Positions 37,439 through 60,805 of a DNA stretch of 64,000 nucleotides are shown in pieces. Origin of the DNA: Bacteroidetes bacterium 37-13 (GTDB lineage: Bacteria; Bacteroidota; Bacteroidia; Chitinophagales; LD1); the NCBI GenBank assembly GCA_001897535.1, contig MKTC01000016.1, forward strand, positions 124,958 to 188,957, given 5' to 3'. A program made the position numbers and the translations under genes. The notes beneath the pieces are model-generated. The model worked only from the letters and a program-made list of their open reading frames with translations, was not told the DNA's origin and did no database searches. Positions within the stretch are counted from its first letter, which is position 1; the number at the start of each line of letters is the position of its first letter.

Positions 37439-39898
37439 ATGAAACAATTCTATGCGTTAATACTTCTACTTTCTGGCGTTATACTTCAAGCTCAGATTAC
37501 ACAAACCATTCGCGGAACTATTATTGATAAAGATGATAGGCAGCCACTTTCTGGCGTGAGCGTTGCGGTGTATAAAAACAATACACTTTTAAAGGGAACA
37601 CTCACAGATAACAGTGGAAATTTTCGGCTTGAAGCAATTCCGGTTGGGAGAGTTTCAATTACAGTCGGCTACCTTGGATACAAAAAAATATCGCTACCAA
37701 ACACTATTGTGAATGCAGGTAAAGAAGTAGTGCTAAATATTGAAATGGAAAGTAGCGTAGAAGCATTGAAAGCAGTGGAAGTAACAGCTGTTCGCAAAGG
37801 TGAAACTATAAATGAAATGGCAATGATTTCGGCACGTGGTTTTAATGTGGAAGAAACTGAACGCTATGCCGGTAGCAGAGGCGACCCTGCCCGAATGGCA
37901 AGTAATTTTGCAGGTGTTTCGGGCAGTGATGATTCGCGCAATGATATTGTGGTGCGGGGCAATTCTCCTTTTGGCGTTCAGTACAAAGTTGAGAATGTAC
38001 ACATTCCAAACCCAAATCACTTTAACATACCGGGAAGTGCCGGTGGTAGTGTTGCCATTTTAAATAACCGAATGCTAAGTAATTCCGATTTTTATACTGG
38101 TGCTTTTCCTGCTGAATTTGGCAATGCCTTAGCCGGAATTTTTGATATAAGAATGAAAAAAGGAAACAACGAACGCAATGAATTTACAGGTGAATTTGGC
38201 TTGCTCGGGGCGAATGTTTTTAGTGAAGGCCCTTTTAGTAAAAAGAGTAAATCAAGTTATATTTTCAACTATCGCTATGCCACTTTAGAACTACTCAATT
38301 TAATGGGCATAGATATTGGCACCGAAGCAATTCCACGCTATACAGATTTACAATTTAAAATAAATGCTCCAACAAAAAATGGTGGTAATATAAGCGTGTT
38401 TGGCATTGGCGGTTATAGCAATATCAACTTGCTCACTTCATCACAAAAAGAATTGAAACAAGGTCGCGATATTTATGCAAGCGGTGGCAGAGATGAATAT
38501 TTCCAATCGGGAATGGGAGTAATTGGGGTGAACTATACGCGCCCTGTTGCTAAAAATGCTTATGCAACCATCACCTTTGCGGCATCTACCGAATGGAATG
38601 AGGTAAGACACAATCGCGTAATTCGCCATGTTGATAGCAGTGGCGCAAAGCCAATTTGGGTAGTTGATTCTATTTACGGAAAACTATTTTACCGCTTTGT
38701 AACTTCAAAACTTAGTGGAAGTTTTTTGCGGCAATATAAGCTAAGCGCTCGCCACACCATTCGCTTTGGTTTACAAACAGAAGCATGGCGTTTTAATTTA
38801 ATTGATAGTAACTTTAGTGAATTCACACATCAGTGGTATTGGCGTGTAAATACTCAACGCTGGGATTTTATGTTTCAACCATACATACAATGGAAATGGA
38901 ACATTAGCGACAAACTTACATTTAATGCAGGCTTGCACGGGCAATATTTTACGCTCAACAAAAACAGTTGGAGCATTGACCCACGAATGGCTTTTAAATA
39001 CCAATTTAAAAGGAATCAAAGCTTTAGCGTGGGCGTTGGACTACACTCACAAATGCTGCCTACTTACAGCTATTTTGTAACCAGAAATGAATTTAGAAAT
39101 ACAGGAAGCTACAATCAAAACTTAGGCTTTATGCGCAGCTTCCACTCTGTGATTGGCTACGATTTATTTATTGGAAACGATATGAGAATAAAAATTGAAG
39201 CTTACTATCAACATCTTTTTAATATTCCTATTGATACTTTCCCTTCTTCTTACAATGTGCTGAATGAAGGTGCCGGATTTGAGCGATTTTTTCCGCTTAA
39301 ATTAACTTCAAAAGGTATTGGAAGAAACTTTGGTTTGGAGTTTACATTTGAAAAATTTTTTACTAAAAATTGGTTCATCATGTTTACCGGAAGTGTGTAT
39401 GATGCACGCTATCGCGGTAGCAATGGAAAATGGTACAATAGTGATTTTAATGGTTTATACAATACCAACTTATTAGGCACAAAAGAGTTTGTGTGGCAGG
39501 GTAAAAACAAACACAAAGATGTGAAGCGAATAAACACTTTTGGTATTGGCGGCAAAATTACGTTTGCAGGAGGAAAGCACTACACACCTTACGATACTGT
39601 CCTAAGCCCAATTAGTGAAGATCCTGTGTTGCAAGATAGTGAACGAAACAAATTTAGTTTTAAACCTTACTTTAGATTTGATATTCGTATTAACTACAAA
39701 TGCAACACGCGAAATATTACACACGAAGTTGGTATAGATTTGGTGAATGTAACTTTTCAAAAAAACATACTCCGTATAGATTATGTTCCTTCAACAAAAG
39801 GTATGCAGGAAGTTTACCAATTAGGTTTCTTGCCTTTGTTCTATTACCGAATAGATTTTAGCATTAGAGGAAAAAAGGCAAATGAGATGCAAAATTAA
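37439..39898 (+). CDS. TonB-dependent receptor with regulatory-like domain
   Basis: An 819-residue outer-membrane receptor. Signal peptide about 1-18 (ending LQAQ), a carboxypeptidase-regulatory-like domain (about 20-105, QTIRGTIIDKDDRQPLSGV), a plug (about 125-235, including DIVVRGNSPFGVQYKVENVHIPNPNHF) and a barrel to the end. The plug phrase PNHFNIPGSAGGSVAILN is one I have seen in a family of Bacteroidota receptors of unknown ligand. There is no HmuY or SusD-type partner beside it; the neighbours are an OmpA gene on the other strand and guanine deaminase. Its substrate is unknown. Confidence 0.83.
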   Translation: MKQFYALILLLSGVILQAQITQTIRGTIIDKDDRQPLSGVSVAVYKNNTLLKGTLTDNSGNFRLEAIPVGRVSITVGYLGYKKISLPNTIVNAGKEVVLNIEMESSVEALKAVEVTAVRKGETINEMAMISARGFNVEETERYAGSRGDPARMASNFAGVSGSDDSRNDIVVRGNSPFGVQYKVENVHIPNPNHFNIPGSAGGSVAILNNRMLSNSDFYTGAFPAEFGNALAGIFDIRMKKGNNERNEFTGEFGLLGANVFSEGPFSKKSKSSYIFNYRYATLELLNLMGIDIGTEAIPRYTDLQFKINAPTKNGGNISVFGIGGYSNINLLTSSQKELKQGRDIYASGGRDEYFQSGMGVIGVNYTRPVAKNAYATITFAASTEWNEVRHNRVIRHVDSSGAKPIWVVDSIYGKLFYRFVTSKLSGSFLRQYKLSARHTIRFGLQTEAWRFNLIDSNFSEFTHQWYWRVNTQRWDFMFQPYIQWKWNISDKLTFNAGLHGQYFTLNKNSWSIDPRMAFKYQFKRNQSFSVGVGLHSQMLPTYSYFVTRNEFRNTGSYNQNLGFMRSFHSVIGYDLFIGNDMRIKIEAYYQHLFNIPIDTFPSSYNVLNEGAGFERFFPLKLTSKGIGRNFGLEFTFEKFFTKNWFIMFTGSVYDARYRGSNGKWYNSDFNGLYNTNLLGTKEFVWQGKNKHKDVKRINTFGIGGKITFAGGKHYTPYDTVLSPISEDPVLQDSERNKFSFKPYFRFDIRINYKCNTRNITHEVGIDLVNVTFQKNILRIDYVPSTKGMQEVYQLGFLPLFYYRIDFSIRGKKANEMQN

Positions 39899-52875: not shown

Positions 52876-53556
52876 ATGGAAAAGAGAGATATTAAAATTT
52901 TATTGGCAGACGATGAAGCTGATGTATTAGACTTTATGAAGTACAATTTAGAGCGCGATGGCTTTGAAGTTTATACTGTAAACAATGGAATTGAAGCAAT
53001 AGAAAGCGCCAAAAAACATCAGCCGCACATTATTATTTTAGATTTGATGATGCCCAAGTTAGATGGCATTTTAACCTGTCGAGAGCTTAGAAATTTGCCA
53101 CAATTTAAAAATACACTTATTACATTTCTCACCGCTCGCGATGAAGATTATTCTCAAATTGCAGGCTTTGAATCTGGTGCTGACGACTATATTACCAAGC
53201 CAATAAAACCTCGCGTTTTTATTAGTAGAATTCATGCTTTACTACGCAGATTAGAAAATAAAGAACACAATAAAAACATTAGCGTTGGCGAAATTGAAAT
53301 CAATACCGAACAATATTCTGTGTTGAAAAAAGGTGAGGAGATTTCACTTGCAAGAAAAGAATTTGAATTGCTGCATTTGCTCATGAACAAGCCTGGAAAA
53401 GTTTTTAAACGAGAAGAAATTTTACGAAAAGTTTGGGGCACTGAAACAATAGTTGGCGACCGCACCATTGATGTTCACATACGGAAACTGCGAGAAAAAA
53501 TTGGCGATAACTACTTCAAAACATTAAAAGGAATTGGCTACAAATTTGAAGCGTGA
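52876..53556 (+). CDS. OmpR/PhoB-family response regulator
   Basis: A 226-residue two-domain regulator. The receiver domain (about 5-125) has the acidic pocket D12, D13 and the phospho-acceptor D56 (IIILDLMMPKLDG), with T/K switch residues in FLTAR and ITKPIK. The C-terminal winged-helix domain (about 135-226) binds DNA and ends in the wing NYFKTLKGIGYKFE. No histidine kinase gene is adjacent, so its partner is elsewhere. I use the ATG at 52876 because the upstream TTG overlaps the promoter. It precedes the broken GH5 gene but is separated by 167 bases. Confidence 0.92.
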   Translation: MEKRDIKILLADDEADVLDFMKYNLERDGFEVYTVNNGIEAIESAKKHQPHIIILDLMMPKLDGILTCRELRNLPQFKNTLITFLTARDEDYSQIAGFESGADDYITKPIKPRVFISRIHALLRRLENKEHNKNISVGEIEINTEQYSVLKKGEEISLARKEFELLHLLMNKPGKVFKREEILRKVWGTETIVGDRTIDVHIRKLREKIGDNYFKTLKGIGYKFEA

Positions 53557-53723
53557 ACGAGTTAATTGATTTACGATTCAATTTACTTATTAGAAAACAA
53601 AACACTCAATTACTTCACAAAATAGCTTTTAATATTTTTAGTAATTCCTAAAACTGAACAATATAGTAATGGCAATAAATAGCTTGATATTGTAGTAAAT
53701 ATACACCTCCAGCAAAACAAGAA

Positions 53724-55132
53724 ATGAAATATAAATTCTTACTTACAGTAATACTTTTTAGTTTAAGTAATCACAGAGATTTATTTGCTAGTACAAATGC
53801 AGAAAAACCTAAAGAACAAACCACCATTACCCAACATTTACCAAGTATAAAAGACCAATTTGGGCGCACCCTTATTTTACACGGTTTGAATACTGCAAGC
53901 AATGCAAAACACTCTAAAGATAACCACCCTTGGATACAGGAAAAAGATGTAATACGAGAAGACACTGAATTTTGTTTTAACACCGTTCGCTATTTGGTGT
54001 TTTGGGGCGCTATTGAACCACAGCAAGGAGTTTACAACTACAACTACTTAAATGAAGTAAAGAAGCGTGTGGAATGGTACACCCAAAATAAAATACATGT
54101 AATTATTGATATGCACCAAGATGTTTATGGCTATGGTGTTGGCGGCAATGGTGCTCTGGATTGGGCAAGCACACAAACAAAAATTCAAAACTTAATATCG
54201 GATAAGCAACTCCGTGGGGGCTACAAAATTTAGAGCCAAAAGTAAAGCGCTCTTACGTGCAATTTTGGAAGTATAAAAAGAAACAATACTTACAGCAACA
54301 TTACATTGCCTCATTTTTAAAAATAGTTGAACTGTTTAAAGATAATCCATACGTAATCGGTTATGATTTAATGAATGAGCCACATGGCGGAAACCTTGCT
54401 AAAACCATGTGTGGAGGTTTTGAAAAAAAATGGCTGATGGCATTTTATGGAAGACTAATTCCGGCAATTCGCGAAGTTGAAAAAGAGAAATATTTATTTT
54501 TTGAGCCTCGTTCTTTCGGAGTAAACTTTGGTATGAAATCCTATTTAAAAAAAGTGGAAGATGCAATTCCTAATGCCAAATTAGTGTATGCTCCACATTG
54601 TTATCCAATGTTTGTAGATATAGGAAAAAGCTATAACAGAAAAGCTAAAGGCGATCTTTCTAAATGGTATAAGCATAGATTAAAAGAACGCAAAATGCAA
54701 AACACACCAATGCTTTTGGGAGAGTTTGGTCTATCTCCTTCCAGAAAAGGCTACGTTTTATTTTTATATGATTTACTGCATAGAGCAGATTCTGTACAAA
54801 TGTCGTGGACATATTGGTCGAGCGATTTAGGTGGCTGGGGACCACTAAATGGAGATTTAACACCCTCTCCTATTTTAGACAAATTGGTGCGTGTATATCC
54901 AAAAGCAACTGCCGGTGAATTAACCAGTTTTAAGTACGAACTTTCCTCTAAAATTTTCAGTATGAAATTTAACAGCAACACTTCTATTTTAGCCCCAACT
55001 GAAATTGCTGTACCAAAAAGTATTTCCCCTAATGGCTATCATGTTTCTATTTCTGGTACTACAAAATACCGTTTAGAAACAGACAGCACAAAAAATAATT
55101 TACTATTATTTATTGAGGAAAACAATCGCTAA
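53724..55132 (+). pseudogene. Endoglycoceramidase-like GH5 glycosidase, disrupted by a -1 frameshift
   Basis: Two adjacent frames form one GH5 protein. Frame one (53724-54233, 169 residues) has a signal peptide (about 1-23), then GLNTASNAKH, FNTVRYLVFWGAIEP and DMHQDVYGYGVGGNG. The second (frame open from 54206 to 55132) continues with PWGLQNLEPKVKRSYVQFW, the acid/base Glu in MNEPHGG (54377-54379) and the nucleophile Glu in LLGEFGLS (54722-54724). Together they give about 475 residues, normal for endoglycoceramidases, which cleave the sugar-ceramide bond of glycosphingolipids. The shift falls between 54204 and 54231. A sequencing error (a run of five G at 54216-54220 is in the interval) or a real recent inactivation are both possible. 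The GTG at 54257 is not a true start. Confidence 0.8.
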
Positions 55133-55170
55133 ATTGAAGTTGTAATACAACCCAAGTAATTAGGATAGAA

Positions 55171-57924: not shown

Positions 57925-59613
57925 CTAAAATTCATACTGTTTATAGGCAATATTCATTCGCGCGCCAATACCAAAATAGAATGTTTCTTGATCACGAGAA
58001 TTTATCTTGCTGTTCTTGTTTCTATAAAGAAATTCTGCATCAACATACACATTGTGCCAAGGTTGGTAAGAGATTAAAAGATTCACATAGTTTTGCATTA
58101 CTCTTGCACCCTGCCCTATTTTATTTCCATAAACACCTTGCACTGTTTCAGCAGTTGTGCTGCGCAGAATATTTCCTCCAAAATGGGTGAGTGTTTTTGT
58201 TTTGGCATCGGTGCTATCTTCTCCATAAATACTATTGAAATATTTAAAAGTAACATTTAAGTTTTTCAAAATTCTATAGTTTGAAATAAAGATAAACTCA
58301 TAAAAATTTGCGCCCAGCGGGTGTGCTAATGGCTGATTATATGTGGTATAATTTGCAGTTACATTTGAACCTGTATTGTGGGTGTATAAATACGGGCGCG
58401 CCATATTAAATTCTGCCTGCAAATCTAAATTCGGTACCACATCAATATATTTTGCACCTATTTGCCAGCCAAATTTATTTGCCCACCAGCCTTTGTTTTT
58501 AATCAACTCACCAAAATTAAACTCATCTAAAATAAACTGTGTATAAAGTTGCAAGTGGTTAAACATATTGGCTTTTGCATCAAAACCAATAAGTGAATTA
58601 TCGGGAGAGCCTAAAGATTGCTCAATGGCACGATAGAAAATAATTGGATTTAAATAGTGAAACTCAAATTGATTTTTACGATTAAAAATTACGCCTTCAA
58701 AAAAACCAATGTCTAAAAAGTGCGCTACATTAAAATTCAAATGGTGAAATGCGCCATACTTTTTAGGCAGTTGTTGGTCGCCACCGCGCGTGTATTGGTT
58801 TATCAATTCAGCCCAAATAGTTTGGTAATTTATTCGCCATACATTCACATTCATTTTCAAGAAAAAATAGGGCGAGCTATAATCGCTTAAATAAAATGAA
58901 CGATAGCCATTGCCAATAAAATTTCTATCGTAGCCAAACTGTAGCGAAATGTGTTTTAATACATTCACATCAACATATCCGCGTGGTTCAAAGTAATCTA
59001 TTCCGGTAGTTTTGTATTCTTTCCAATAACCATTGCCGGGAATATATCTATTTGAGCCGGTTAAAAATTTATCTTGAACATATTTCGGTGTGCGTGTTTG
59101 ATTTTCGGTAATGGAGAAATAAAAACTCACTCTTTGCTTAATGGTAAAGCGCACTTCCGCACCTCTGGTGTTTACAAAAAGAATGTCTTTATTGCCTAAT
59201 TCTCCGCCAACTCTAAACGCTAAAATCGGGTTAATTTTTAAGCTGAAATTCTTCTTTACATCAACGTGTCCTAAACTTGCAGGTTCTCGATAAAACTTCC
59301 ACAACGGTTTATCGGTTTTGCTCTTTAAAGAATCAAGCCATTCACTGTTATCATCTATCAAATATTGGAGTTCAAATTTTTGTCTTGAATTTAACGGCAG
59401 GTTTGAAAACCAAAGCGCTTCTGCAATCTCCGCAGCCGACTTTCTGCTATATGGTTTCACCGAAGTATGCTGAATCGGTAAAATTCTTCCATAGCGAATA
59501 TCGAGTCGATCAATGATATGATAAGCCTCATTTCCTAAAGGAATGTAAGTTCCTTGTGCAAAAATTTGCGCGGTGAACAGCAGTAAAAAAGCTGCAACAA
59601 TGTGCTTAATCAT
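57925..59613 (-). CDS. Outer-membrane beta-barrel, Wzi/capsule-assembly-like
   Basis: A 562-residue exported protein. A signal peptide (about 1-19, ending IFAQ) is followed by a small helical N-terminal domain (about 30-90) and then a long run of alternating-residue beta strands to the C-terminus, which ends in an aromatic-rich strand (RMNIAYKQYEF). The layout and phrases such as FQFGYDRNFIGNGYRSFYLSDY are reminiscent of the Wzi family and of the Bacteroidota gliding protein RemB, which is also Wzi-like. Wzi binds capsule polysaccharide to the outer membrane. No polysaccharide genes are nearby, so the role is unproven. Confidence 0.6.
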   Translation of the reverse strand: MIKHIVAAFLLLFTAQIFAQGTYIPLGNEAYHIIDRLDIRYGRILPIQHTSVKPYSRKSAAEIAEALWFSNLPLNSRQKFELQYLIDDNSEWLDSLKSKTDKPLWKFYREPASLGHVDVKKNFSLKINPILAFRVGGELGNKDILFVNTRGAEVRFTIKQRVSFYFSITENQTRTPKYVQDKFLTGSNRYIPGNGYWKEYKTTGIDYFEPRGYVDVNVLKHISLQFGYDRNFIGNGYRSFYLSDYSSPYFFLKMNVNVWRINYQTIWAELINQYTRGGDQQLPKKYGAFHHLNFNVAHFLDIGFFEGVIFNRKNQFEFHYLNPIIFYRAIEQSLGSPDNSLIGFDAKANMFNHLQLYTQFILDEFNFGELIKNKGWWANKFGWQIGAKYIDVVPNLDLQAEFNMARPYLYTHNTGSNVTANYTTYNQPLAHPLGANFYEFIFISNYRILKNLNVTFKYFNSIYGEDSTDAKTKTLTHFGGNILRSTTAETVQGVYGNKIGQGARVMQNYVNLLISYQPWHNVYVDAEFLYRNKNSKINSRDQETFYFGIGARMNIAYKQYEF

Positions 59614-59758
59614 GCGGCTAAAAAAACAATTTCTATGGAGTACGGCTAAAAATATTTAAGTGGTGAAATAAATAATGTCCGCTTTTTGAGTTTCAACCCA
59701 AATTGGTTTTAGATTTAGCAGTAAATATTTCATCAACATTTATTACAAAAACATATTT

Positions 59759-59788
59759 TTGAATTAAAGAAAACTCGTTTTATTTTTG
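59759..59788 (+). promoter_or_regulatory. Promoter of the PspC-like gene
   Basis: TTG at 59759-59761, 19 bases, then TATTTTTG at 59781-59788: an exact consensus match. The ATG at 59807 lies 18 bases further, so the leader is about 10 bases. Confidence 0.7.
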
Positions 59789-59806
59789 TGAAGATATTCA
59801 TAGCAA

Positions 59807-60031
59807 ATGCGTATAACTGACTTCAAGTTTTTAATTGAACAGAATTTATTTGGCGTGTGTACGCGCATAGGAAAACGCTTAGGTATTCCAATTAAAAACA
59901 TTCGCTTGTTTTTTATTTATGCAAGTTGTTTGGCAATTGGTTCACCAATTATTATCTATTTTGTTTTAGCATTTTGGATGAACATGCGCGATTATATCCG
60001 CAGTAGTAGAAGTTCCGTTTGGGATTACTAA
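59807..60031 (+). CDS. Small PspC-domain membrane protein
   Basis: A 74-residue protein consisting of one PspC domain: a short N-terminal segment with FGVCTRIGKRLGIPIKNIRLFFIYASC, then a hydrophobic helix (about residues 34-58) and a short basic tail. PspC-type proteins sit in the inner membrane and in some bacteria sense or answer membrane stress with PspA. No psp genes are around it. The length is normal for the single-domain type, and a good promoter precedes it. Confidence 0.82.
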   Translation: MRITDFKFLIEQNLFGVCTRIGKRLGIPIKNIRLFFIYASCLAIGSPIIIYFVLAFWMNMRDYIRSSRSSVWDY

Positions 60032-60041
60032 TTTTCCCTAT

Positions 60042-60072
60042 TTGTTTCTATAAAAAACATTTTGTATATTTG
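60042..60072 (+). promoter_or_regulatory. Promoter of a short transcript
   Basis: TTG at 60042-60044, 20 bases, then TATATTTG at 60065-60072: an exact consensus match. It lies just after the PspC-like gene stop, and the predicted start is near 60079. Confidence 0.65.
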
Positions 60073-60123
60073 ATTTCGTTGTATAGTTTCTTACAACTAA
60101 TTTTCAAAGTATTTTACTGTATA

Positions 60124-60252
60124 ATGATACCGAAAAGCAATACTTACTATTTAGCTTATAGCTACAGCTACAAAACAGTTGCAAGCATAGCTAATGTATT
60201 GTTTGCGCAGTTCAAGTCGTTATCAATTCAACAAAAGGTCTTTGTAATTTAA
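60124..60252 (+). CDS. Possible 42-residue small protein, or a small RNA
   Basis: A 42-codon frame starting MIPKSNTYYLAYSYSYK lies wholly inside the predicted transcript (about 60079-60292) and stops immediately before its terminator. Codon use looks like its neighbours (AAA, GCA, CAA, TTA). I recognise no homolog, and it is equally possible that the transcript is non-coding. A longer frame begins at 60019 but overlaps the end of the PspC-like gene in another frame, so I do not support that start. Confidence 0.25.
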   Translation: MIPKSNTYYLAYSYSYKTVASIANVLFAQFKSLSIQQKVFVI

Positions 60253-60253
60253 G

Positions 60254-60290
60254 CCTCCGTTTTATTCATTTTTTTCTAAACGGAGGATAG
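60254..60290 (+). terminator. Intrinsic terminator of the short transcript
   Basis: CCTCCGTTT (60254-60262) and AAACGGAGG (60278-60286) form a perfect 9-bp stem with a 15-base loop. The T-run after it is weak (ATAGTTTT), so it is a moderate terminator. Confidence 0.65.
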
Positions 60291-60352
60291 TTTTCCGTAA
60301 CTACATTCCATACGCATGACAGCATGCGGCAATCACACTTTTTAAAACAATG

Positions 60353-60380
60353 CTTTTACCAATTTTAATTGTTGTAAAAG
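60353..60380 (+). repeat. Hairpin upstream of the Rnk-like gene
   Basis: CTTTTAC-CAATT (60353-60364) pairs with AATTG-GTAAAAG, giving a stem of 12 pairs with a two-base bulge (60367-60380 as the second arm). The distance to the Rnk-like ATG is 53 bases. It lacks a T-run and could be a leader structure. Confidence 0.4.
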
Positions 60381-60433
60381 TTCCACATAAAATTTATTCA
60401 AAAAACAATTATTAAACATTAAAACAATAGAAC

Positions 60434-60805
60434 ATGAAACCAATAATAACAAGAACAGATTACGACACTTTGAGAAACACTATTATGTTTTTGCCACCGA
60501 TGCAAAAAACAAAAGAAGTACAACTGTTGTTTGAAGAATTGCAGTCGGGCGATTTAATTAGCGATAGCGAAATAAAGCCTGATGTAATTCGCTTAAACTC
60601 TTACTTTGAAGTGGAAGATGAAAAAACAAAAAAAGTTTTGGGTTATACCATCACTTTGCCTAATGATGCCAATTTACAAGAGAAAAAGATTTCTGTGCTT
60701 TCACCTTTAGGAATTGCACTTATAGGCTTTTCGGAAGGCATGTTAGTTGATTGTGCGCTACCTGCCGGCAACAAAAAATTAAAAATATTGAAAGTAGAAA
60801 ACTAA
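60434..60805 (+). CDS. Rnk-like GreA/GreB C-terminal-domain protein
   Basis: A 123-residue protein of the Rnk/GreA-GreB family. The N-terminal helical part (about 1-50) is short; the C-terminal FKBP-like domain (about 55-123) contains VLGYTITLPNDAN, KISVLSPLGIALIGFSEG and the closing KLKILKVEN, the pattern of Rnk and of GreA's RNA polymerase-binding domain. Rnk, a nucleoside diphosphate kinase regulator, binds RNA polymerase. The GreA coiled-coil that cleaves stalled RNA is too short here, so I do not expect transcript cleavage. It is a single-gene unit with its own terminator. Confidence 0.8.
   Translation: MKPIITRTDYDTLRNTIMFLPPMQKTKEVQLLFEELQSGDLISDSEIKPDVIRLNSYFEVEDEKTKKVLGYTITLPNDANLQEKKISVLSPLGIALIGFSEGMLVDCALPAGNKKLKILKVEN

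Follow-up and report, generated by a model that had tools for sequence, protein, structure and literature searches.

The window, by which we mean the whole analysed stretch of 64,000 nucleotides from contig MKTC01000016.1 of Bacteroidetes bacterium 37-13, contains a gene for a secreted GH5 endoglycoceramidase, closest to the structurally known GH5_28 type, that is very probably a pseudogene of recent origin. In the assembled sequence, it bears two lesions, namely a frame-changing indel at approximately 54204-54212, which precedes the two catalytic glutamates, and a nonsense codon located eight codons before the inherited end. Translation starting at 53724 would then stop after 169 residues and yield a product without any catalytic glutamate, and a product of the second frame would carry both glutamates without the signal peptide or the start of the barrel. 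Since each of these putative products would be devoid of essential parts, neither is expected to cut glycosphingolipids. The features of the locus are listed in Table 1.

Table 1. Features of the disrupted endoglycoceramidase-like gene (window coordinates)
Feature	Position	Strand	Remarks
First ORF	53724..54233	+	169 aa; begins like a signal peptide, followed by the first part of the GH5 barrel (HGLN, DMHQD)
Second frame	54206..55132	+	Remainder of the GH5 barrel with MNEP and LGEFG; Glyco_hydro_5_C
Frame-change stretch	54204..54212	+	From junction scores and homologue alignments
Premature in-frame stop TAA	55130..55132	+	
Stranded eight codons and stop	55133..55159	+	Homology to the last strand of the family persists

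Layout and family assignment of the gene

The first ORF is terminated at 54233 by a TAG in the shifted frame. The second frame is open from 54206 to the TAA, has its first GTG at 54257 and is listed as an ORF of 54257-55132, so that the two frames, which are on the same strand, overlap at 54206-54233. The Pfam family Cellulase (272 positions) is matched by the first ORF at positions 16-93 and by the second ORF at positions 98-267, and the PF00150 scores of 41.9 and 63.1 bits for the two halves, compared to a curated cut-off of 23.5, place the gene in GH5. The barrel is followed in the second ORF by a match to positions 1-67 of the 87 positions of Glyco_hydro_5_C, i.e., the C-terminal domain of the GH5_28 type is present, the early stop truncating its last strand. 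Similarly, the first ORF matches residues 35-135 and the second ORF residues 185-448 of the endoglycoceramidase II of Rhodococcus (E 8.8e-25 and 2.9e-39, respectively). A split homology of this kind, in which two ORFs cover consecutive portions of a single enzyme, is far beyond chance, and the frame break that had been noted is thereby confirmed. The initial annotation, which had proposed that a frameshift breaks an endoglycoceramidase gene, is therefore borne out by the Pfam and endoglycoceramidase II matches. However, it had also assigned the two catalytic glutamates and the FW segment to different frames, but the acid/base glutamate (MNEP), the nucleophile glutamate (LGEFG) and the QFWKY segment are all located in the second ORF, after the break.

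The nearest solved structure for both halves is endoglycoceramidase II (PDB 2osw/2osx/2osy), which points to the GH5_28 type by structural neighbourhood rather than by a CAZy subfamily model. The domain order as well as the NEP, GEFG and DMHQD segments are common to this enzyme and the window copy, whereas the latter is split over two frames, contains a premature stop and originates from Bacteroidota. In the alignments, the alanine at NEP in 2osy and the serine at GEFG in 2osx coincide with the glutamates of MNEP and LGEFG; both residues are presumably those of active-site mutants. The passages of the 2012 GH5 classification that deal with this subfamily list 2OSX under GH5_28 (PMC3526467). 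Both halves also match the structures 5ccu, 5j14 and 6jyz, which are designated ‘putative secreted endoglycosylceramidase’, but these matches are clearly weaker (44.5 and 49.8 bits for 5ccu) than those to 2osw (90.7 and 138.4 bits). What the window copy does not have is one continuous ORF, because of the frame change and the in-frame stop. Judged by its sequence, the gene is a broken relative of the endoglycoceramidase family and would not count as a working member.

It could be argued that the halves are made separately and then join to a two-gene split enzyme, since the second frame offers a GTG and both halves together cover the barrel. However, a signal peptide is absent from the second ORF, which begins within the barrel, and no split was found among the homologues examined, which renders such an enzyme highly unlikely. 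A whole-genome search revealed the endoglycoceramidase-like gene as single copy, and no paralogue replacing it was found in its own genome. Furthermore, a scan for promoters and terminators gave no excess over shuffled sequences.

The frame change and the premature stop

Every possible junction between the two frames was scored against seven same-family homologues. The best scores, 108.3 and 108.0, were obtained for a switch between 54206 and 54212, compared to 103.4 at 54203-54206, 101.1 at 54212-54215 and at most 87.1 for junctions inside or past the five-G run (54216-54220). Moreover, the P-W codons leading into the G-run match the family already in the new frame. As the best junction lies upstream of the five Gs, where the break had originally been suspected, the junction scores speak against a homopolymer miscount at this run as the best explanation of the frame change. 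The junction stretch comprises 77 nt in the window and 75 nt in the seven relatives, which gives a net gain of two nucleotides or, equivalently, the loss of one nucleotide together with one more codon.

The second defect is located at the 3′ end. Downstream of the TAA, eight codons followed by a stop at 55157-55159 correspond in the alignment to the C-terminal strand seen in the relatives. Among 20,000 random 24-mers drawn from the window, none equalled the profile score of this tail, and among 12,549 open 24-mers with a stop directly after them, only three did. Since the homology extends past the TAA, the gene was once longer and the TAA is derived; read from this alignment, the TAA is a second, independent lesion eight codons before the inherited end. 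Of the gene span 53724-55132 that had been given at first, the start thus stands, but the right end does not, as the homology continues to 55159 past the lesion. A stop eight codons early alone need not kill an enzyme.

A sequencing or assembly error would turn the indel into an error of the consensus and leave the gene whole in the organism, with the early stop as a slightly shortened C-terminus. Such an error would go along with the constrained appearance of most of the gene with its little decay, with the normal codon use, with the draft state of the genome (43 contigs) and with the indel being the sole severe lesion. On the other hand, the junction maps upstream of the G-run and outside of a homopolymer, the same gene carries a second defect of another kind, namely the nonsense codon with its homologous tail, and no break was seen in any of the other window genes examined. 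Regarding the latter, a Pfam scan of 30 of the 46 other window ORFs assigned a family to 28 and revealed no frame-split domain, and in a comparison of the window with 160 kb of G002, one of the two other genomes of the genus, all seven genes with at least 45% identity were matched over nearly their whole length. As the in-frame stop is a second lesion in the same gene, a true pseudogene is likelier than a read error, which we regard as improbable.

Alternatively, a ribosomal frame shift programmed at the break might lead to the full-length enzyme, and indeed the two frames overlap at the break and the G-run is located just downstream of the switch point. The marks of a programmed frameshift, that is a shift in the relatives together with a slippery site or a stimulator, are not found here, however: none of the 16 full-length homologues requires a shift, no classical slippery heptamer is seen at the junction, and the 89 nt downstream fold like shuffled sequences (z -0.34; 73 of 200 shuffles were as good). 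Moreover, even a shifted product would be truncated at the premature TAA. Programmed recoding is thus very improbable, and it is extremely improbable that lineage-specific recoding at the break, combined with readthrough of the TAA, still yields the full-length endoglycoceramidase from this gene.

Homologues in other genomes and constraint

The comparison with relatives that had been suggested for this gene favours its inactivation. The second half finds matches with E <= 0.001 in 19 of 98 other genomes (20 of 99 if the own genome is included), which are strong (E < 1e-30) in 15. Each of the 16 loci obtained in full length from relatives consists of one closed frame (451-483 aa). G016 also has a strong match, which is a fragment at a contig edge. 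The edge fragment L016 was not used, and one locus (L006) has an unread base near its end. Within the family f1, a strong match is present in 10 of 29 other genomes, including G016, and the gene is thus patchy and optional in this family, although in some genomes it may be missing due to incomplete assemblies. In the genus itself, the copy of G002 is intact, whereas G001 has a weak match only (33%, E 4.6e-9). Since the gene is optional in the family, its loss is unremarkable, and since it is whole in the relatives, an ordinary, recent gene loss is the apparent reading. The locus would therefore be a further case in which a secreted, optional glycosidase was recently lost, which leaves the general view unchanged.

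A second collection, which partly overlaps with the first and shares several loci with it, comprises 52 loci from MAGs of Chitinophagales and other Bacteroidota, from Bacteriovoracales and from Actinobacteria. Among these, 50 are closed frames, the exceptions being L098, which begins at a contig end, and L130, which is a distant relative. The 50 closed-frame loci carry the family segments, except that the nucleophile segment is GEIG in L097 and L099 and that the HGLN pattern is missing in four loci of Streptomyces and Streptacidiphilus. The intact homologues of Chitinophagales (L004 of G002; L079-L096 of the MAGs) have the same architecture as the window copy, but unlike this broken copy they are single open frames. 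Numerous Chitinophagales MAGs as well as the predatory Bacteriovoracales carry endoglycoceramidase-like genes (L079-L096, L103, L129; L097-L099, L120), with two copies each in UBA7317 and AH-558-A13. Intact genes of this kind are thereby documented in many members of the former group and also in the latter, whereas the 2012 classification knew the bacterial enzymes almost only from Actinobacteria, the source of all but one of its GH5_28 enzymes (PMC3526467).

Regarding decay, the window copy departs from the invariant columns of its own family at 17 of 152 positions, compared to 1-9 of 136-144 in nine homologues, and the departures include G84C, P145L and W166G. It also has the most departures in a set of 22 Chitinophagales sequences (7 of 86, compared to 0-6 in the 21 others), and in the 52-sequence set with a threshold of 95% it ranks fourth (4 of 73). 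For the latter two sets, L098 and L130 were left out, near-identical copies were counted once, and NEP and DxHQD were required, so that the invariance of these two segments is partly due to the selection of sequences, whereas that of the nucleophile glutamate is independent of it. L022 (34% identity) was excluded from the same-family departure counts, the trees and the relative-rate counts. Relative-rate counts against G002 gave no clear acceleration, with 36-71 sites changed only in the window copy and 34-52 only in G002, and one of 14 tests, that with L002, exceeded a chi2 of 3.84. An elevated rate in the window copy is thus unsupported by these counts. As the remaining gene still looks constrained, its inactivation appears to be recent, and we infer that constraint acted over most of its history.

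Neighbourhood and origin of the gene

With a GC3 of 0.30 and 0.28 for the two parts, compared to a mean of 0.30 in 40 window genes, and with a host-like codon use, the composition gives no sign of a foreign origin. The window copy shares 59.5% identity over 449 residues with that of G002 (L004), whereas three control genes reach 77.9, 79.2 and 85.7% between the same two genomes. Between G002 and G007, the endoglycoceramidase-like gene has 67.4% identity and the controls have 59.4, 77.9 and 57.1%. Furthermore, a clade of the window and G002 copies is weakly rejected (AU p 0.034), but two tree runs placed the window copy differently. The two copies may be other than simple vertical orthologues. 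The low identity to the copy of the same genus is a hint of hidden paralogy or of transfer within the family.

In the stretches of five relatives, the endoglycoceramidase-like copies are located in other gene neighbourhoods. TIGR01825, considered as a marker of sphingolipid synthesis, turned out to be unspecific, as it matches 13 of 14 control genomes, and the two matches in the own genome are both below the cut-off; it thus offers no support for the suggested connection of the gene with sphingolipids made by the host itself. The longest gap in the gene list of the window (821 bp) is at 59613-60434 and contains short ORFs only, with a maximum of 77 aa. An operon encoding an aminotransferase, a thioesterase, a LON domain protein and a response regulator is collinear with C1:196807-199850 of G002. 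In G002, this operon is followed by a homologue of the window gene 37439-39898, which makes 53556-53724 of the window, behind the response regulator gene, a rearrangement point.
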